Assembly: GCA_944326265.1 (NCBI GenBank) | Contig: CALVDE010000001.1 | Location: 1-64,000 of the forward strand | Origin: an uncultured Bacteroidales bacterium | GTDB taxonomy: Bacteria > Bacteroidota > Bacteroidia > Bacteroidales > UBA932 | DNA length: 64,000 nt | Direction of reading: 5' to 3' | Shown: in pieces, positions 50,184 to 61,218 of the stretch | Position numbering within the stretch: position 1 is the first letter of the stretch | Layout: every line of letters begins with the position of its first letter | The notes under the pieces: model-generated | Told to the model about the DNA's origin: nothing | The model's database searches: none | The model's input: the letters and a program-made list of their open reading frames with translations, nothing else | Translations under genes and position numbers: made by a program

Positions 50184-53100
50184 ATGGAGAAGTTTATAGA
50201 CAGACTGCTCGAGCGCAGATGGCTCGTGCTGGCCGTGTTCGTACTGCTCGCGGCCCTCGGAATGTATGCCTGGAAGCATCTGGCGATAGACGCCTATCCC
50301 GATATCGCCGATGTGTCGGTGGGAGTGGCCACCCAGGTGCCAGGACTCGCCGTAGCCGAGATAGAACAGCAGATTACCGTACCTTTGGAGAGGGAACTGA
50401 ATGGAATACCCGGCCTGAAGGTGATGCGCAGCAAGAATTTTTTCGGCATATCCAAGATAACCCTGGTCTTCGAGGACGGAGTGGACGACTACTGGGCCAG
50501 GCAGCGGGTGATGGAGCGGATTGCGGACATCGAGCTGCCTTTCGGGGCGCAGCCCGGACTCGACCCTCTGACCTCCCCGACGGGCGAGATATTCCGCTAT
50601 GTGGTCACGGGAGACCGCAGTCTCAGGGAACTGACCGACCTGAACCATTGGGTGATAATCCCACGTCTGAAGCAGATCTACGGCATTGCGGATGTCTCCA
50701 ATTTCGGCGGCATCACGACTCAGTATCAGATCGAGATCGACCCCGACCGGCTGACCGCCTACGGTCTCTCGCTGAGCGAGGTGACCGATGCGATAGAGGA
50801 CAATAACGCCAATGCCGGAGGCAGCACCCTCATGCGCGGAGACCTGAGCTATGTGGTGCGCGGGGTCGGCCTGGTGCAGGATCTGGAAGATCTGGGCAAC
50901 ATAGTGGTGCGCAGCGACGGGGGTGCTCCCGTCTACCTCAGGGATATCGGTACGCTCAAGTACGGCAATCTGGAGCGCAAGGGCATCATGGGCTATCTCG
51001 ACGATGAGACGGACTATGAGGACGGAGTGCAGGGCATGGTCCAGCTGCTCCGTTACGAGAATCCCTCACGGGTGCTCCGGGAGGTGAAACGGGCGGTGCA
51101 GGACCTCAATGAGAACATCCTTCCTGAGGGAGTGCGGCTGAAGGTCTTCTACGACCGTACCGATCTGGTGGGGGCAACCCTCAATACCATAGTGCATACG
51201 CTTTCTTTCGGCATTCTGCTGGTGCTGGCCGTGCTGGTTATCTTCCTCGGCAGCCCTAAGGGTGCCCTGCTGGCGACCGTCACCATACCGTTGTCGCTGC
51301 TTATTGCATTTATCCTGATGTGGCTGACGGATATCCCGGCCAATCTGCTCTCGCTCGGCGCCATTGATTTCGGCATCATAGTGGACGGCACAATCGTGAT
51401 GATGGAGACAATCCTCAAGAAGAGGGAGGACGATCCTTCCGCTCCGCTGGACCGCAGTACAATAGCCCGGAGAGCGGCTGAGGTGGCCAAGCCTATTTTC
51501 TTCGCTACCCTTATCATCATTACCGCTTATCTGCCGCTCTTCGCATTTGACCGGGTGGAGCGCAAGCTGTTTACCCCGATGGCATTTACCCTGAGCTTTG
51601 CCTTGTTCGGAGCCTTGGCGGCGGCCCTGCTGCTCATCCCCGGACTGGCCTATTCGGTCTATCGCAAGCCGCAGAAGGTGTACCGCAACAAGTGGATGGA
51701 GACACTGACAGTCAGGTATAAAGCTGCTACGGCTGCCATCATCGGAGCTCCCCGGAAGCTGATTGCGCCCATTGCCGCAGTGCTCGCGGCTGTCATCGGA
51801 CTGTCGGTGTATGTGGGCAAGGATTTCATGCCGGAACTGGACGAGGGCAGTATCTGGATACAGGTGCAGCTGCCGGCCGGTATGTCCCTCGAGAAGTCTT
51901 CCGAGATGGCCACAGAACTGAGGCACAGGCTGAAGGAGTTCGACGAGGTGACATACGTCATGACCCAGACAGGGCGCGATGACGAGGGCGTGTGTCCGTT
52001 CTCGTTTTCCCATATCGAGGTGATGGTCGGACTCAAGCCCTATAAGGAATGGGAGAGGGGACGCCGCAAACAGGATCTGGTCAACGACATGGCGGCCATG
52101 CTGGAGACGATGCCCGGTTACGGGGCCGGATTCTCGCAGCCTATTATCGACATGGTGATGGACCAGATAGCGGGGTCGCACAGTGACCTGGCTGTCAAGA
52201 TATACGGTGAGGACCTGGATGAGGCCAGGCGCATAGCGGAAGAGATTGCGTGGGTCGTATCCGGTATCGAGGGAGCGGGGGATGTCAGGCTGGCGGAGGA
52301 GCCCTTCCTGCCGCAGCTGCAGATAGTGGTGGACAGGGATCGGATAGCCCAGTACGGGCTCAATGTGGCCGATGTGGCTGAACTCATCGAGGTGGCCCTG
52401 GGCGGAAAGGCTGTCTCCCAAGTCTTTGTGGGCAGCAGGGTCTACGATGTGACCTGCCGCTACACCGAGGATTCCAGGGATACGCCCGAGAAAATAGGAG
52501 CCCTCATGCTCACCTCGGCTTCCGGGACCAAGATACCCCTGGCGGCAGTGGCGGACGTGCGCACTACCATAGGAGCCAGCATGATATCCCGGGAGATGAA
52601 CCGCCGTGTGACCACCGTCCAGGTCAATCTCAGGGACCGGGACCTCTCCTCCTTCGTGGCCGAGGCCGACCGTGCGATAAGGCACAATGTGTTCTACGAC
52701 CACCGGGATTTCAGTTATGCCTGGGGCGGACAGCTTGAGAATCAGGACAGGGCCTTCAGCCGGCTCGCGCTGATCGTGCCGGTGACCCTCGCCGTGATGT
52801 TCCTGCTGCTGTTCTTCTCCTTCGGCAACTTCCGTCAGGCCGGACTGCTGATAGCCCTGCTGCCGCTGATGATATTCGGCGGTATGCTGGCCCTGGTAGT
52901 GAGAGGGATGACCTTCAACATCTCCTCGGCGGTGGGATTCATAGCCCTTTTCGGACTGGCGATACAGAACGGGGTCATCATGCTCTCCCATATCAATATC
53001 CTGCGCAAGCGGGGCTACGAGCTGCGGCTGGCCGTCATCGAAGGAGCCTCCCACCGTCTGCGTCCGATGCTGATGACAGCTACTGTGGCCATATTCGGAC

Positions 53101-54548
53101 TGCTGCCGGCCTCGCTGGCCACAGGCATAGGTTCTGATGTGCAGCGGCCTCTGGCGACGGTCATCGTCTACGGACTGCTCTTCGCCACTCTCGTGACCCT
53201 TTTCGTGCTGCCGGCACTGTACTACCTGGTGGAGAGGCGCAGGCTCAGATTGTCGGACAATAAAAATAATATACACTCCGGGGCAATGCTCAGGACTCTG
53301 CTGCTGCTCCCGGCAATCCTGGGCACCGCAGGAATTCTGCACGCCCAGCCTGTGAAAATAGGCTACGGGACCTATCTGGAAGCCGTGGCGGTCGGCAATC
53401 TGGAATATGCCGCCGAGAAACTGAATATAGACATATCGCAGGCCGAGCTGACGGCGGCGCGGGTGTTCAGCGACCTGACCCTGTCAGCATCGTACAGCAA
53501 CAACAGTGACTGGAGCATGGCGATGGGCCAGGGAGCGGAGTTCGGGCTGAGCAAGAACATCACTTTCGGGGTACGTCGGGCCCGCATGGATCTGGCTGCA
53601 AATCAGAAGGCCATGACCGAGGCTCTGCTGGACGACTATCTGCGCCGTCTCAGGGCTCAGGCGACCGTGGTCTACCTTGAGGCCATGAGACAGCAGGAAC
53701 TGTACCGGGTGCAGCTCGACTCATACGACAATATCCGGCGGCTGGCGGAGAGCGACAGTCTGCGCTTCGAGGCCGGAGAGATTACTGAGGTGGCTGCGCG
53801 GCAGAGCCGGCTGGAAGCGGACATACAGCACAATGAGATGGCCGGTGCCGAGGCGGACCTGTATCAGGCCCTTGCAGCCCTGGGCGTGCAGATGGGAAGG
53901 TCCTCGCGGGATACCCTTTTCGGACCGGATGCCGTACTGCGGCCGCTGGTACGGGATTTTGTCCTCGATTCGCTGCTTGCCGCCGCATACGGAGGCCGGG
54001 CCGACCTGATGGCGGCCATGCGCAATGAGGATGTGGCCGCAGCGGCTCTCGCACTTACACGCAAGGAGAGGGGACCGGACATAGAGCTGTCATTGGGAGT
54101 TAATATCAATTCGGAGGTACTCAATGAGATAGCCCCGGCTCCGGCATTTACCGGAATTTCCGCAGGGCTGGCCATTCCCCTGAAATTCTCCAGCATCAAC
54201 CGTGGAGCGGTCGATGCAGCCCGGGGACGGCAGGCACAGGCCAGGATGCAGACCCGACAGGTGGAGCTGCAGATAGAGACCGAGGTGCTCCAGGCTTATC
54301 GGCGTTATATGCTGCTGTCTCAGCAGATTCTGTCAAGCGGAGACCGCCTGCTGTCAGATGCCCGCAGCGTGATGGACGGTATGCTGTACAGCTACAGCCA
54401 GGGAGAGGTCTCGCTGCTCGAGGTCCTCGATGCCCAGCGTACCTACAATGACGTGCGGGCCAGGTATATCGACGTGGTGTACGGACAGGCGCTGGCCCTC
54501 GTGGAGCTGGAACTTGCGGCCGGAATCTGGGACATTGTCCTTCTATAG
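50184..54548 (+). CDS. heavy-metal RND pump fused to an outer-membrane factor (CzcA-CzcC fusion)
   Basis: A 1454-residue protein with two parts. Residues 1-1030 are a CusA/CzcA-type pump: LAIDAYPDIADVSVGVATQV, TM4 with AIDFGIIVDGTIVMMET (Asp395 and Asp401, the heavy-metal proton relay) and the last helices ending YYLVERRRLRLSD. From Met1035 a new signal-like hydrophobic stretch (LLLLPAILGTAGILHAQP) precedes a complete outer-membrane efflux protein (TolC/CzcC type, about 420 residues, ending with SLLEVLDAQRTYND). No stop or frameshift separates them. Such fusions are known in Bacteroidetes; here the internal signal may serve as an extra membrane helix or the second part may be made from Met1035. 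Metal specificity (Cu/Ag versus Zn/Co/Cd) is unclear. Confidence 0.94.
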   Translation: MEKFIDRLLERRWLVLAVFVLLAALGMYAWKHLAIDAYPDIADVSVGVATQVPGLAVAEIEQQITVPLERELNGIPGLKVMRSKNFFGISKITLVFEDGVDDYWARQRVMERIADIELPFGAQPGLDPLTSPTGEIFRYVVTGDRSLRELTDLNHWVIIPRLKQIYGIADVSNFGGITTQYQIEIDPDRLTAYGLSLSEVTDAIEDNNANAGGSTLMRGDLSYVVRGVGLVQDLEDLGNIVVRSDGGAPVYLRDIGTLKYGNLERKGIMGYLDDETDYEDGVQGMVQLLRYENPSRVLREVKRAVQDLNENILPEGVRLKVFYDRTDLVGATLNTIVHTLSFGILLVLAVLVIFLGSPKGALLATVTIPLSLLIAFILMWLTDIPANLLSLGAIDFGIIVDGTIVMMETILKKREDDPSAPLDRSTIARRAAEVAKPIFFATLIIITAYLPLFAFDRVERKLFTPMAFTLSFALFGALAAALLLIPGLAYSVYRKPQKVYRNKWMETLTVRYKAATAAIIGAPRKLIAPIAAVLAAVIGLSVYVGKDFMPELDEGSIWIQVQLPAGMSLEKSSEMATELRHRLKEFDEVTYVMTQTGRDDEGVCPFSFSHIEVMVGLKPYKEWERGRRKQDLVNDMAAMLETMPGYGAGFSQPIIDMVMDQIAGSHSDLAVKIYGEDLDEARRIAEEIAWVVSGIEGAGDVRLAEEPFLPQLQIVVDRDRIAQYGLNVADVAELIEVALGGKAVSQVFVGSRVYDVTCRYTEDSRDTPEKIGALMLTSASGTKIPLAAVADVRTTIGASMISREMNRRVTTVQVNLRDRDLSSFVAEADRAIRHNVFYDHRDFSYAWGGQLENQDRAFSRLALIVPVTLAVMFLLLFFSFGNFRQAGLLIALLPLMIFGGMLALVVRGMTFNISSAVGFIALFGLAIQNGVIMLSHINILRKRGYELRLAVIEGASHRLRPMLMTATVAIFGLLPASLATGIGSDVQRPLATVIVYGLLFATLVTLFVLPALYYLVERRRLRLSDNKNNIHSGAMLRTLLLLPAILGTAGILHAQPVKIGYGTYLEAVAVGNLEYAAEKLNIDISQAELTAARVFSDLTLSASYSNNSDWSMAMGQGAEFGLSKNITFGVRRARMDLAANQKAMTEALLDDYLRRLRAQATVVYLEAMRQQELYRVQLDSYDNIRRLAESDSLRFEAGEITEVAARQSRLEADIQHNEMAGAEADLYQALAALGVQMGRSSRDTLFGPDAVLRPLVRDFVLDSLLAAAYGGRADLMAAMRNEDVAAAALALTRKERGPDIELSLGVNINSEVLNEIAPAPAFTGISAGLAIPLKFSSINRGAVDAARGRQAQARMQTRQVELQIETEVLQAYRRYMLLSQQILSSGDRLLSDARSVMDGMLYSYSQGEVSLLEVLDAQRTYNDVRARYIDVVYGQALALVELELAAGIWDIVLL

Positions 54549-57033: not shown

Positions 57034-57205
57034 CACCTTCGGAAGGTGAGCAAGTTCCGCACAATTTCTACTCACCTTCCGAAGGTGCGCAGAAGCCGCA
57101 CTGCCTCGAGAGCGGCCTGTAGCCGCATATCCCCACCCACCGTACCATTCCCACCTTCCGAAGGTGGGCTGTTTCCCTACAATTTCTACTCACCTTCCGA
57201 AGGTG
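57034..57205 (-). repeat. tetra-palindrome array A (RAYT-associated), inverted relative to arrays B and C
   Basis: Four 15-bp palindromes with 7-bp arms, CACCTTC-N-GAAGGTG, at 57034-57048, 57073-57087, 57152-57166 and 57191-57205. The gaps are 24, 64 and 24 bp, so the array is 172 bp and the two halves repeat at 118 bp. The central base is G in the first and C in the others as read on the plus strand. Aligned without gaps in reverse complement, the 24-nt spacers and the 64-nt core match arrays B and C at many positions, including an invariant GGCT at core positions 28-31. The array fills the space before the cutC promoter. Confidence 0.9.
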
Positions 57206-57221
57206 CGCAGAAAAAATCAAG

Positions 57222-57229
57222 TAAATTTG
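57222..57229 (+). promoter_or_regulatory. -7 promoter box of cutC
   Basis: TAAATTTG, 30 bp before the cutC ATG. The expected -33 position (around 57199-57202) falls inside the last palindrome of array A. Confidence 0.5.
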
Positions 57230-57259
57230 CTGCGACAAATCACTAAACCACTAAAGAAT

Positions 57260-58009
57260 ATGTACAACCACTACACCATAGAAATCTGCGCTCCGTCATA
57301 CGAGAGTGCCCTGGCCGCGCAGAGAGGCGGGGCTGCGAGAATCGAACTGTGTTCCGAACTGGATGCCGGAGGAGTGACCCCTTCCTACGGACTGATTCAA
57401 GGAGTGCGGGCGGCTCTGACTATTGCCGTCAACGTGCTGGTCCGTCCGAGGTCCGGAGATTTTCTGTATTCGTCCTACGAGGTGGAGACAGTGACACGCG
57501 ATATAGCGCTGTGTGCGCAGGCTGGTGTACAGGGTGTTGTGGTAGGTGCGCTGACGGCGGATGCGAAAGTGGACCGGACGGCGGCTGCCGAGTGGCTGAA
57601 GGAGGCCCGCAGACATGGGTTGTCGACGACGTTTCATAGGGCCATCGACTGTGCTGACGGTATTTACGATGCCCTTGAGGATATTGCCTCATTAGGATAC
57701 GATCGCGTACTGACTTCCGGTGGATGTCCGACTGCCTGGGAGGGCCGTGAGACGATAGCCCGTATGCAGGCTATGATGGCCAACCATACCGGGAGCTCCC
57801 GCAAACCGTTGATAATCATGCCTGGCTCCGGTGTCAATCCGACCAATATACGCGACCTGGTGCTTCAGACCGGGGTCAGCGAAGTACATCTGTCGGCTAC
57901 CAGGCGACACAAGTCCGGTATGCGCGTGCTCTCCGGCATTGCGCAGGAGGAGACGGTCGTCCACAGCGACGAGGAGACTGTGCGCAGGGCAGTGGCGGCA
58001 ATCTGCTGA
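57260..58009 (+). CDS. cutC: CutC family protein
   Basis: A 249-residue TIM-barrel protein of the CutC family. Hallmarks are EICAPSYESALAAQRGGAAR, RIELCSELDAGGVTPSYG, NVLVRPRSGDFLYSSYE, TFHRAIDCADG, RVLTSGGCPTAWEG and EVHLSATR. CutC was linked to copper tolerance in E. coli, but that role is disputed and the reaction remains uncertain. Start at 57260 gives the usual family N-terminus; the open frame upstream to 57164 runs through the palindromic array and is rejected. Confidence 0.94.
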   Translation: MYNHYTIEICAPSYESALAAQRGGAARIELCSELDAGGVTPSYGLIQGVRAALTIAVNVLVRPRSGDFLYSSYEVETVTRDIALCAQAGVQGVVVGALTADAKVDRTAAAEWLKEARRHGLSTTFHRAIDCADGIYDALEDIASLGYDRVLTSGGCPTAWEGRETIARMQAMMANHTGSSRKPLIIMPGSGVNPTNIRDLVLQTGVSEVHLSATRRHKSGMRVLSGIAQEETVVHSDEETVRRAVAAIC

Positions 58010-58263
58010 ACTCTGCTGACTTGTTGCTGAGGAGGTCCTAGGATCGCAAGTCTGTGTCTTCAGGATTGGCCTTATTCGCGATGCGTTGTCTTTCAGCAGG
58101 TCGTCACAGGACGAACATGCACATTACGGTGCACCATCGCCGGGGTTGCGCGGAAACTCCAGGTAGTCAGTGCGTAATGACTCAAAAAGTATTTTTATAA
58201 AAAATAAGAAATTTAAAAACGTAAAAATCTTCTGCGGAAGAGCATATTCTCTGAACTTTTCCC
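58010..58263. other. intergenic region between cutC and the RAYT promoter, function not recognised
   Basis: No coding sequence is evident. There are scattered short inverted repeats, such as CATTACG near 58122 with CGTAATG near 58173. The section from about 58185 to 58240 is very AT-rich. It could hold a small structured RNA or degraded DNA, but nothing can be named. Confidence 0.3.
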
Positions 58264-58293
58264 TTGATTATCAGTAGATAAACTATATCTTTG
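58264..58293 (+). promoter_or_regulatory. promoter of the RAYT gene
   Basis: TTG (58264-58266) and TATCTTTG (58286-58293) with 19 bp between them, an exact consensus match. It lies 114 bp before the RAYT ATG. Confidence 0.65.
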
Positions 58294-58406
58294 AGGAGCC
58301 TGTCGGACCTCTCGAGCCGGACCATCCGGGTCATTTGAGCCAGTTGATTGGAGCCGGCAGGCATCAGCGTTATTATTTACTAACCTTAACATAAAGAGTA
58401 CAGATT
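58294..58406 (+). promoter_or_regulatory. long, potentially structured 5' leader of the RAYT gene
   Basis: GCCTGTCGG (58298-58306) can pair with CCGGCAGGC (58354-58362) as a 9-bp stem with one G-U pair, and the enclosed part can form smaller stems. Other leaders predicted in this window are mostly 5-45 nt, so about 107 nt is unusual and could regulate transposase expression. Confidence 0.35.
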
Positions 58407-59345
58407 ATGAAGGGAAAGATCTACCATCTATGCTATACCTCCCACGGCGAGGTTCTATGTAGGAAGTATCTGGATTACTGCATGCTGTTCAACTGTATCG
58501 CTCAGGCGACGATTGGCACCGGTGCTCAGCTGCTTGCGTATGCCATTATGTCCACCCACGTTCATCTCATAGTGATAACGGAGTATCCGGCGGCTTACAT
58601 TCAGAGGATAAGATCGTCTTATACTCAGATGTTTAACAGGCGGTATCGTAGAAAAGGAACATTAGGAGAACCGTCTTTCTATTCTGTGGAACTGATAGGA
58701 AGGCGTCATGTTACGGCTGCGATAAGTTATGTTCTTAGAAACCCCGTGCATCATGAACTGACATCGAATCCGTATGATTATGAGTTCTCGTCGATCGGTT
58801 TGTATTTCAGGAAAGAAACGAGGAGACCGGAGAACATGTGTCCTAAGAAAGCGACAAAGCCTTTCGCTACAATAATCCGGAGAGATAACAGACAGAGGCT
58901 TCCGGAGGGATTGATATTTGATGAAACTGGACAGATAGAACCGTCTCAGCTGGTGAACAGTGCTGTGGTAGAGGGATTTTTCGGCTCTTACGCTGCGTTT
59001 GATTATGGTCTTCAAAGGCGTGACTATCAAGTGTGGGAAACGGAACAGTTGCAGGATAGGGACGGACAGTCAGCGATAACGGTTGGAATTATTGAACCTT
59101 ATCTTTCTGGCAAAGACCTTGAGCGTATTTTGACTCAAAGCAAGCAATGGGCAAGGGAGAAACCGATTCTGGATATGGATATTTGTGCGGTAGTGGATGA
59201 AAAGTATGTGCCGGAGTATGGGAAGAAAAGTTATGCGCAACTTACGGATTCAGAAAAGGTTGTGATAGCAGATAGTATCAAGAGGCAATATGGTGTCGGA
59301 GACGCTGTGCTTTCGCGGTGTCTTGGGATAGTGCTTTGCAAATAG
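58407..59345 (+). CDS. REP-associated tyrosine transposase-like protein (RAYT, Y1_Tnp/IS200-like HUH superfamily)
   Basis: A 312-residue single-strand DNA transposase-like protein. Residues 1-130 form the Y1_Tnp domain, with the HUH metal motif in MSTHVHLIV (His51, His53) and the candidate catalytic Tyr108 in ISYVLRNPVHH, the same setting as the YIHLNPV motif of RAYTs. Residues 140-312 are an extra domain of unknown fold, likely for DNA recognition. It has no terminal repeats or second orf as in IS200/IS605. Palindromic array B starts 35 bp downstream and arrays A and C are nearby, exactly the association that defines RAYTs. Composition is slightly AT-richer than the flanks. Confidence 0.85.
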   Translation: MKGKIYHLCYTSHGEVLCRKYLDYCMLFNCIAQATIGTGAQLLAYAIMSTHVHLIVITEYPAAYIQRIRSSYTQMFNRRYRRKGTLGEPSFYSVELIGRRHVTAAISYVLRNPVHHELTSNPYDYEFSSIGLYFRKETRRPENMCPKKATKPFATIIRRDNRQRLPEGLIFDETGQIEPSQLVNSAVVEGFFGSYAAFDYGLQRRDYQVWETEQLQDRDGQSAITVGIIEPYLSGKDLERILTQSKQWAREKPILDMDICAVVDEKYVPEYGKKSYAQLTDSEKVVIADSIKRQYGVGDAVLSRCLGIVLCK

Positions 59346-59380
59346 GGAATATGGACTGTCGGGGCGGTGGCGTTTTAGCT

Positions 59381-59552
59381 CACCTTCGGAAGGTGTGCGA
59401 AAAATGGCGGGAAACTGCTCACCTTCGGAAGGTGGAATCGGCACGATGTGTCGGCCAACGTGGCTACAATATGCTCCAGTGGTGGTGGCGTTTCTGTCCA
59501 CCTTCGGAAGGTGTGTAGAAAACGCTGGAAACATGCTCACCTTCGGAAGGTG
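59381..59552 (+). repeat. tetra-palindrome array B (RAYT-associated)
   Basis: CACCTTCGGAAGGTG occurs four times, at 59381-59395, 59420-59434, 59499-59513 and 59538-59552, all with central G. Spacing is 24, 64 and 24 bp, giving 172 bp and a 118-bp half period, exactly as in arrays A and C. It lies just after the RAYT stop and before the 3' end of the convergent lipoprotein gene. The remaining 118 bp up to 59670 contain one weak inverted repeat (AACCGG near 59570, CCGGTT near 59596) and no gene. Confidence 0.92.
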
Positions 59553-59670
59553 GAATGCGACGAAATAAGAAACCGGCAGAGCGCACGCGACTCCACCGGT
59601 TCGGTCCTCACAGTTTAAGTGCGTCGTCCCCTTGGACTGAGTGCCGTTCCAGGAGGGACATCAAAGAGAA

Positions 59671-60954
59671 TCAGTCGTAAGAGACGGTGACGGTCAGGCT
59701 CTGCTCGGTCTCTCTGGGTTCGCCGGCGGGTACAGGCTCGGAGAGAGTAATCTCAAGGTCGTCTCTGTAGTAGTACTTTTCGTCTCCGTTGAGGTAGAAA
59801 TTATCCGGATTTTTGATTTTGACAGTTGCACTCTGGCTGTATTTGGTGGCGGTCATAGGAACTGTGGACTGGGTCCGGATCATGTCTCCGTCAGCATCGA
59901 ACTCAATGCCGCCGGTCAGGTCGTCAATGGAGCAGGAGTACTGGACGTAGGTCCAGGACCAGGTGCGCTGTGTCTCTTCTTCGGAGAATTCATATTTGCT
60001 CATGAAGGATACATAATCCTCATCTACGACTACTCTGTCCCCGTCGTACAATCCTATGGATGGCAAGAATATGTGAGCGCTTCTGTTTCCCGTCAGTCCC
60101 AGAAGGTTCAGGATACCCATGACGACATCTTCATCCTCGAAGAAATAATTCAGGAATAAGTTAAAATCCAGATACCCGGTGTTTTCATATTCCGTTATGA
60201 CCGGTAAATATGTTTCACCGTTATACGTCATGGAGGTCAGATCCCTGTTTTCCCACGAGTATGTGAACTGTCCCGAATTGACATCTTTCAGGTAGCCCTC
60301 CTGATCGTATGTGATATTCCATATTGTGCCGTACATATTGTCCAGGACGGTGGCTTTTCCTTCGTCGTCTACAGTGAATTTCCCCATATCTGTCATGAAG
60401 ACTTCACCTTGACTATATTCAAAATAGTAAGTTTCGGTATACGGGTAGTCATCGGAATACTGTAGTGAGGACAGCCTGCCCTGTTCATCATAACCGAATG
60501 CCCAGCTGAAAGAATAATCAAACGATCCGTCATGGAAAAACTCAAGCAGTATGCTCTTGGGCTTCTTTCTGGTCGGCTGCTCCGGTTCTTCCGGATTCTC
60601 CTCGTCGGTAGCATTCTGGGTGACGGTCACCGTGGTCTCATCGGTACCGCAGGATATGCGGACGGTGGCGGTGCGGGCCTCTGTCTTATTGTTGGCGGAA
60701 GCCGAGAGGGTAGCGGCGATTTCCCCGGCCTCACCGGAAGCAGGCGAAACGCTCAGCCAGTCTCCGCCCTCGACGGCAGCAGTCCATTCAGCGGTGGCGG
60801 TGAAGGAAATGGTAGTGTCGGTCTCGGCAGCTGGCAGAGTCATCTGTGCATCGGAACGCAGGGACACGGAACCGTTCTCCGGCTTCTCCTGGCAGCCGGC
60901 AGCCATCAGCGCGGCGGCTGCGGCAACAGTAAGAATAAGGGTAAAATGTCTCAT
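59671..60954 (-). CDS. BACON-domain lipoprotein with DUF4595-like C-terminal region
   Basis: A 427-residue surface or periplasmic lipoprotein. The signal peptide ends LMAAGC (Cys21). Residues 25-115 resemble a BACON domain (GGDWLSVSPASGEAGEIAA; TVRISCGTDETTVTVTQ), a beta-sandwich module often tied to carbohydrate or mucin interactions in Bacteroidales. A Pro/Glu linker follows. Residues 135-427 are rich in Tyr, Asp and Gly with RHS-like phrases (YDEQGRLSSLQYSDDYPY; YDQEGYLKDV), as in DUF4595 proteins. No enzyme motif is seen. Its promoter carries the same dyad as that of the two-component operon. Confidence 0.8.
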   Translation of the reverse strand: MRHFTLILTVAAAAALMAAGCQEKPENGSVSLRSDAQMTLPAAETDTTISFTATAEWTAAVEGGDWLSVSPASGEAGEIAATLSASANNKTEARTATVRISCGTDETTVTVTQNATDEENPEEPEQPTRKKPKSILLEFFHDGSFDYSFSWAFGYDEQGRLSSLQYSDDYPYTETYYFEYSQGEVFMTDMGKFTVDDEGKATVLDNMYGTIWNITYDQEGYLKDVNSGQFTYSWENRDLTSMTYNGETYLPVITEYENTGYLDFNLFLNYFFEDEDVVMGILNLLGLTGNRSAHIFLPSIGLYDGDRVVVDEDYVSFMSKYEFSEEETQRTWSWTYVQYSCSIDDLTGGIEFDADGDMIRTQSTVPMTATKYSQSATVKIKNPDNFYLNGDEKYYYRDDLEITLSEPVPAGEPRETEQSLTVTVSYD

Positions 60955-60977
60955 ATTCTGTAGAAATTTTATTTATG

Positions 60978-61008
60978 CAAATTAAGGAACAATAACGAAT
61001 CGAGTCAA
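60978..61008 (-). promoter_or_regulatory. promoter of the BACON lipoprotein gene
   Basis: On the minus strand TTG (61008-61006), 20 bp, then TTAATTTG (60985-60978), one mismatch from TAnnTTTG. The start codon is 24 bp further on. A shared dyad lies directly upstream. Confidence 0.5.
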
Positions 61009-61026
61009 TCACGGAAAACCATGATT
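61007..61026 (-). promoter_or_regulatory. dyad operator site 1, upstream of the lipoprotein gene
   Basis: Plus-strand AATCACGG-AAAA-CCATGATT, an 8-4-8 inverted repeat with one mismatch. Its centre (61016.5) is 35 bp from the centre of the -7 box, the position of a class II activator site. It matches site 2 (63856-63875) at 18 of 20 positions. Confidence 0.6.
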
Positions 61027-61046
61027 TTAAACGGTTCCGCGCTTCC

Positions 61047-61218
61047 CATCTTCGGAAGGTGTGCAGAAAATGTGGGGAAAGTCCTCACCTTCGGAAGGTG
61101 GGAAAGGTGCCGTAGAAGGAGAAACGTGGCTGTAGTTGCTTCTCGCAGGGGTGCCTCCTCTGCGCACCTTCGGAAGGTGTGTGGAAAATGTGGGGAAAGT
61201 CCTCACCTTCGGAAGGTG
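61047..61218 (+). repeat. tetra-palindrome array C (RAYT-associated)
   Basis: Palindromes at 61047-61061 (variant with T at 61049), 61086-61100, 61165-61179 and 61204-61218, all with central G. Gaps are again 24, 64 and 24 bp. The two 24-nt spacers differ from each other at only two positions. The core shares AACGTGGCT with array B at identical core positions 23-31. It lies between the promoter of the lipoprotein gene and the 3' end of the response regulator gene. The 69 bp to 61287 hold no recognisable feature. Confidence 0.92.

Follow-up and report, generated by a model that had tools for sequence, protein, structure and literature searches.

A probable REPtron-type system in a Rikenellaceae genome: a RAYT-like transposase gene among tandem hairpin arrays

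The first 64,000 nt of contig CALVDE010000001.1 (hereafter the window) belong to the draft genome of an uncultured Bacteroidales bacterium, a Rikenellaceae of the Candidatus Coprenecus type, whose named relatives are Candidatus Coprenecus metagenome-assembled genomes (MAGs) of the same family (Rikenellaceae, Bacteroidales). Near the end of the window, a gene resembling those of REP-associated tyrosine transposases (RAYTs; REP, repetitive extragenic palindrome) lies among three arrays of short palindromes. With names read from the translations, the order is trpS, array A, cutC, RAYT, array B, a lipoprotein gene, array C, a response regulator gene and a histidine kinase gene. The arrays are intergenic within the window, and two more follow on the same contig beyond the window end (C1:66215 and C1:68575).

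An earlier note, drawn from the letters of this DNA, had described twelve palindromes CACCTTC-N-GAAGGTG in the three arrays. All twelve were located where it had placed them, eleven of them exact and one carrying a single change (61047-61061), and the spacing 15-24-15-64-15-24-15 is identical in arrays A, B and C. This is far above chance: the window holds 13 matches with up to two mismatches vs 0.2 expected, and none of 100 shuffled sequences came close. The loops of array A are, as also noted, inverted relative to those of B and C (the loop score is negative in A and positive in B). Arrays A and B bracket the RAYT gene in inverted orientation, and the gene indeed ends 35 nt ahead of array B. 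Coordinates are collected in Table 1.

Table 1. Features of the RAYT locus and its arrays (window positions)
Feature	Position	Strand	Remarks
Array A	57034..57205	-	hairpin units 57034-57087 and 57152-57205, 64-nt linker; inverted vs array B
Array A linker, 64 nt	57088..57151	-	conserved GGCTACAGG core on the reverse complement
RAYT-like HUH/Y1 transposase, 312 aa	58407..59345	+	purifying selection, dN/dS 0.07-0.15 vs three relatives
HUH motif H51-V-H53	58557..58565	+	both histidines invariant in 12 homologs
Exchanged RAYT part, about aa 83-312	58653..59345	+	proposed to determine specificity; ends in high-confidence modelled helices aa 256-306
Presumed catalytic Tyr108 in SYVLRNPVHH	58728..58730	+	invariant in 12 homologs
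Partial linker end GGGGCGGTGGCGTTTTAGCT	59361..59380	+	precedes array B; like the 3' end of internal linkers
Array B	59381..59552	+	hairpin units 59381-59434 and 59499-59552, 64-nt linker; 35 nt past the RAYT stop
Array B linker, 64 nt	59435..59498	+	conserved GTGGCTACA core
Array C	61047..61218	+	hairpin units 61047-61100 (first palindrome with one change) and 61165-61218, 64-nt linker

The four palindromes of each window array had been taken for one strict unit; they are instead two hairpin units in tandem. Across 11 genomes of the genus, 69 arrays were parsed; they hold 1-10 palindromes each, mostly in even numbers, and the gaps measure 24 nt (122 times), 64 nt (47 times), 63 nt (26 times) or 23 nt (19 times), every other value occurring at most twice. 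The unit is therefore palindrome-23/24-palindrome plus a 63/64-nt linker, that is, typically a 54-nt element of two palindromes and a 24-nt loop, repeated with a period of 117/118 in 1-5 copies per array. All units run head to tail in 36 of the 40 arrays that could be scored. Each unit is itself an inverted repeat and does not correspond to the inverted pair of repeats that constitutes a REPIN (REP doublet forming a hairpin) or a BIME (bacterial interspersed mosaic element). The linkers share a near-invariant ACAG core, and in the 24-nt loops a common A-tract leads into a G-rich stretch. When each 54-nt element is folded as single-stranded DNA, a single long hairpin between its two palindromes (P1:P2) is predicted, with -13.6 to -19 kcal/mol and z of -5.4 to -7.4. 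Arm positions vary together in the column covariation, which is uninformative on one long P1:P2 hairpin versus two short ones because the arms are self-complementary and the elements are copied whole. In 117 elements searched on both strands, no GT[AG]G guide or head was present at 0-3 nt from the hairpin foot, and Rfam gave no match over the 17-kb region.

The gene product carries both HUH histidines and the catalytic tyrosine of IS200/IS605-type enzymes (H51, H53 and Y108). The Pfam profile Y1_Tnp matches it below the cut-off (E 0.0011); the sole NCBIfam family reported for it, NF047646 REP_Tyr_transpos, reaches 43.8 bits (E 2.3e-11), under the curated cut-off of 80 bits. All 12 homologs match both profiles. 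A search of PDB by sequence returned nothing relevant, and matches were obtained by fold alone: the best for the AlphaFold model, with moderate confidence in the HUH part and poor confidence at aa 111-253, is 4ER8, a structure of E. coli RAYT in complex with a REP hairpin (E 1.6e-5), followed by the ISDra2 and IS608 transposases. Past the core there are an SS pair at aa 128-129 and confident helices at aa 256-306, with no match to a helix-turn-helix (HTH) profile. As judged by the low ratio of nonsynonymous to synonymous substitution (dN/dS, Table 1), the gene is maintained. No relative of it was found in viral contigs. We thus regard the product as a RAYT-like HUH/Y1 protein, a 'tamed' single-strand-DNA transposase, which may mobilise its substrates as single strands.

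Copies of the palindrome were counted by pattern searches in draft MAGs; since contigs often end in arrays, these are minimum numbers. In the host genome (2.36 Mb, 24 contigs), the palindrome occurs in 50 exact copies and the reversed control pattern is absent. Among 300 genomes of the family, 281 of them outside the genus, the palindrome is confined to the genus but for one single copy. Of the 19 genus genomes, six contain a close RAYT, either intact or almost so or as a terminal fragment, and have counts of 50-117; G017 (one of our genome numbers), where the RAYT is broken, has 8, G003 has 23 and the remaining eleven have 0-7. Copy number rises with the identity of the best RAYT (Spearman 0.90, Mann-Whitney p 0.00025), in a comparison of 19 related genomes that ignores phylogeny. 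In the host, 5 of 15 arrays lie within 12 kb of the RAYT gene (binomial 3e-7, noticed post hoc). Repeat abundance therefore follows possession of a window-type RAYT, G007 and G003 being the exceptions. The link to the RAYT that the earlier note had made dependent on further copies in the genome and on counts related to the gene is upheld by the 50 host copies and by the 19 genomes, and the non-autonomous element family that it suggested is supported in the form of REP-like elements, multi-copy and RAYT-associated.

These results make it very probable that the locus is a REPtron-type system, composed of a RAYT-like HUH/Y1 single-strand transposase and its cognate REP-like arrays. The palindromes could also be thought of as sites for a host DNA-binding protein, or as regulatory RNA hairpins, with a RAYT nearby by chance, since the perfect 7-bp dyads are operator-like and the window arrays lie between genes. 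However, counts track RAYT possession, linkers and loops are repeated along with the arms, no Rfam family is matched, and many related RAYTs have different repeats of their own alongside. We consider this explanation highly improbable.

The last point is borne out in the host itself, which has five more RAYT-like genes, at most 42% identical to that of the window. The 42% paralog (contig 17) has CCACAACGGCAG hairpins with a period of 105 on both sides. Many RAYT loci of the genus and family likewise bear an inverted repeat of their own on both sides (ACTCCTTC, GAGTGTACC, AAGGTGCCG, GCAGGTGAACC, AGACTTGTACA, GAAATCCAC, CGAAAGGGAT and others), and several loops of different families have a TTTCCCGC[AG]TTT-like core in common. 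By the same method no flanking inverted repeats were detected at some RAYT loci, e.g. L029-L031, L059, L084, L086 and L087. Counts were compared with the cognate RAYT for three families besides CACC: those of GAGTGTAC, a rare family, match its RAYT carriers (G009, G010, G013 and G015) plus one copy in G017, those of AAGGTGCC fit roughly, and the third, CAACGGCA, is taken up below. A distant RAYT-like gene of G005 (L046, 476-2466) is accompanied by many CACCTGGAGC hairpins on each side, another unrelated cognate family. At intergenic sites that hold CACC arrays in relatives, we also observed hairpins of other families in G003 (L133, CCGCAACGGCAG) and G004 (L142, AAAAAGCAACG); different families therefore share insertion sites.

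The relation between enzyme and repeat is seen most directly in G007. Its RAYT and that of the window are 99% identical over aa 1-83 and 48% over aa 96-312, and silent divergence is 0.23 in the N-terminal part vs 1.5 in the C-terminal part. The latter segment appears to have been replaced, because its silent sites are saturated and fast selection alone would not explain this. The surrounding DNA is about 92-95% identical between the two genomes (recA-trpS 93.5%, cutC 92.2%, RAYT aa 1-80 94-97%) and is interrupted by two islands of divergence. One begins at codon 83-95, takes in the rest of the RAYT gene and continues through array B, with 73-78% identity over aa 81-112 and 45-59% thereafter; the other covers array A (58%) and the gap between array A and cutC (60%). 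Both G007 arrays beside the RAYT carry a different palindrome, ACTCCTTC-N-GAAGGAGT (ACTCC type). The C-terminal part of the RAYT and the adjoining palindromes were thus exchanged jointly, with the DNA between them unchanged, which suggests that palindrome specificity resides in this part of the enzyme. G017, whose RAYT has the same C-terminal type as that of G007, contains 50 ACTCC copies and has ACTCC palindromes at array A. The 63 CACC copies found elsewhere in G007 would be expected if its RAYT changed type recently.

A chimeric G007 assembly was considered as a source of the mosaic gene and is unlikely: the syntenic neighbours are on the same 66-kb contig, which has the gene in its interior, and G017 independently pairs this C-terminal type with ACTCC repeats.

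We tentatively propose that Rikenellaceae RAYTs may be modular: the N-terminal part of the HUH domain would be conserved, and the exchangeable part, which starts at about codon 83-95 and contains the tyrosine helix, would dictate which arms are read. Recombination would swap this part and the adjacent arrays would be rewritten to match, in a one-step switch of specificity; the idea is conceivable, if somewhat speculative. Two close species whose RAYTs differ mainly past codon 83-95 and lie beside different palindromes amount to a domain swap made by nature, with which specificity can be tested directly.

Arrays at orthologous sites differ by whole units. One site holds 4, 6, 6, 2, 2 and 1 palindromes in six genomes, and site D 4 vs 10 between genomes. 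At one site, G010 is short of exactly one palindrome and loop (P-24), as recombination between direct copies would leave. Some sites are free of arrays: G003 has none at site 40, filled in G002 and G007, and has there an intact hairpin of the CAACGGCAG family, the left arm of which is replaced in the other two; G017 has a short scar in place of the site D array, and G004 is without arrays at two further sites. The comparison of orthologous regions suggested in the earlier note thus gave whole-unit differences and array-free sites, but no clean insertion boundary. The sites compared do not demonstrate the mobility that it had thought possible: most are filled in several species, the main difference being the number of tandem units. 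Present-day transposition is nevertheless plausible. At array site 8, we observed a left flank with 97-100% identity between species that have only 47% identity in their RAYTs (L108, L125, L120, L119 and L097), which suggests recent exchange of the region or cross-contamination of MAGs.

Alternatively, the arrays may be relics that were once spread by the RAYT and now change by slippage and recombination only, the RAYT being kept for another, non-transposing host function. The arrays common to several species with mainly whole-unit differences, the G010 deletion and the purifying selection on the RAYT would fit this explanation, as would the many CACC copies retained by G007 and G003 without a matching RAYT. 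It accounts less readily for copy numbers among relatives of up to 117, vs 50, and for the change of palindrome in both RAYT-adjacent arrays of G007 with unchanged DNA between, which implies that specificity has kept its importance, at the RAYT locus at least. Relic arrays are therefore possible, though we find them rather doubtful.

In the definition of Nunvar et al. 2010 (PMC2817692), RAYTs are characterised by flanking REPs in inverted orientation, a REP number that goes with the RAYT, and a GT(A/G)G head. The first two features are found here, the head is absent in 117 elements and the subclass motifs differ, so we place the system within the RAYT/REP kind without a subclass. It would be a variant not described before, lacking both the GT[AG]G guide and a conserved W and falling outside subclass 2.6 as published. 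With the REPtrons of E. coli, Stenotrophomonas and Pseudomonas, it shares an HUH/Y1 enzyme, inverted cognate hairpins at the gene, many scattered copies whose number tracks the RAYT, and joint change of RAYT and repeats; co-evolution of TnpA_REP groups with their REPs is the conclusion of Corneloup et al. 2021 (PMC8266576). Unlike in REPtrons, the hairpin foot has no GT[AG]G, the arms are themselves perfect palindromes, direct tandem units with a conserved 63/64-nt linker replace inverted REP pairs, and the protein is longer, with an exchangeable C-terminal part. IS200/IS605 TnpA enzymes (IS608, ISDra2) are alike in fold and in presumed chemistry on single-stranded hairpins. They differ in that the host has one gene of the window type, with no sign of a mobile gene copy, and in that IS200 enzymes have no such large C-terminal part.

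The earlier note knew of no comparable unit in Bacteroidales, which holds only in part. TnpA_REP genes of Bacteroidetes subclass 2.6 are flanked by repeated 'atypical secondary structures' without GT[AG]G, and have the tyrosine motif YIH[QN]NP and a median HuH-Y distance of 82 (Quentin et al. 2018, PMC6006769). Subclass 2.6 (RAYT group 5) resembles the present system in phylum and in non-canonical flanking structures that are repeated in the genome and lack GT[AG]G. In contrast, the window RAYT has an H53-Y108 spacing of 55, the motif YVLRNP, no W between HUH and Tyr, and 312 aa vs about 179. Also reported are families of terminal inverted repeats (TIRs) that accompany another set of tyrosine transposases, the TIRYTs (Di Nocera et al. 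2013, PMC3733652). Most TIRYTs belong to subclass 2.1, with an SS motif, a C-terminal HTH and no REPs found (Quentin et al. 2018, PMC6006769). The arrays might be TIRs of a subclass 2.1-like TIRYT and not REPs. In favour of this are the SS motif past the core, the helical C-terminal elements, the inverted repeats at the gene flanks, the 20 of 26 TIRYTs that fall in subclass 2.1, and the description of TIR families in dimers and clusters. The tyrosine motif, however, is SYVLRNPxHH here and YIELNP or Y[IV]HLNP in 2.1, the repeats form tandem hairpin-linker arrays of up to 5 units instead of one terminal repeat per side, and their core is not GGGGWSAS. A TIRYT is thus unlikely.

Under the REPtron-type reading, the 54-nt element would act as a single-stranded hairpin of two 15-nt arms and a 24-nt loop, followed by the 63/64-nt linker with its ACAG core. 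When the strand is exposed, e.g. at replication forks, the two arms may pair; the N-terminal HUH domain would hold the folded DNA and cut a strand nearby via Tyr108, and the C-terminal part would read the arm sequence. Cutting and rejoining could scatter elements to intergenic sites, and replication slippage or recombination between identical palindromes could add or remove whole 117/118-bp units.

Several observations weigh against this reading. Besides the neglect of phylogeny in the copy-number correlation, G007 holds its CACC-type copies despite a RAYT placed among ACTCC arrays, and 23 copies occur in the 81%-complete assembly of G003, where no intact close RAYT was found. Most orthologous sites are occupied in several species, which leaves transposition itself an indirect conclusion, and where arrays are absent (G003 site 40, G017 site D, G004) the flanks are altered, so that neither a precise insertion boundary nor a target could be defined. 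Counts of the CAACGGCA family do not track whether a genome has the detected 42% RAYT; the loop motif is partly shared, with 61 of 117 CACC-family loops fitting a simple version of its core; and the RAYT model is unreliable in its middle part (aa 111-253).

To our knowledge, RAYT/REP work has mainly been done in Proteobacteria, and the choice of repeat by a RAYT has been examined for few enzyme-repeat pairs. The present results would add to the known range of REPtron-like systems a family of gut Bacteroidales in which several RAYT-repeat families exist in parallel.

Some minor features of the region were also observed. The lipoprotein gene between arrays B and C (59671-60954) has extra diverged copies beside single palindromes in G007, G008 and G011 (L060, L061 and L063). 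Beyond the window, a large open reading frame of carboxypeptidase-regulatory/TonB-type appearance (C1 about 68502-71753; L016 13503-16754) runs open through the eight-palindrome array E, the last palindrome of which provides an in-frame GTG as a possible start codon. Upstream of the locus, a single open reading frame of 1454 aa (50184-54548, plus strand) apparently encodes a CusA/CzcA-type RND (resistance-nodulation-division) efflux pump fused to a TolC-like outer-membrane part.

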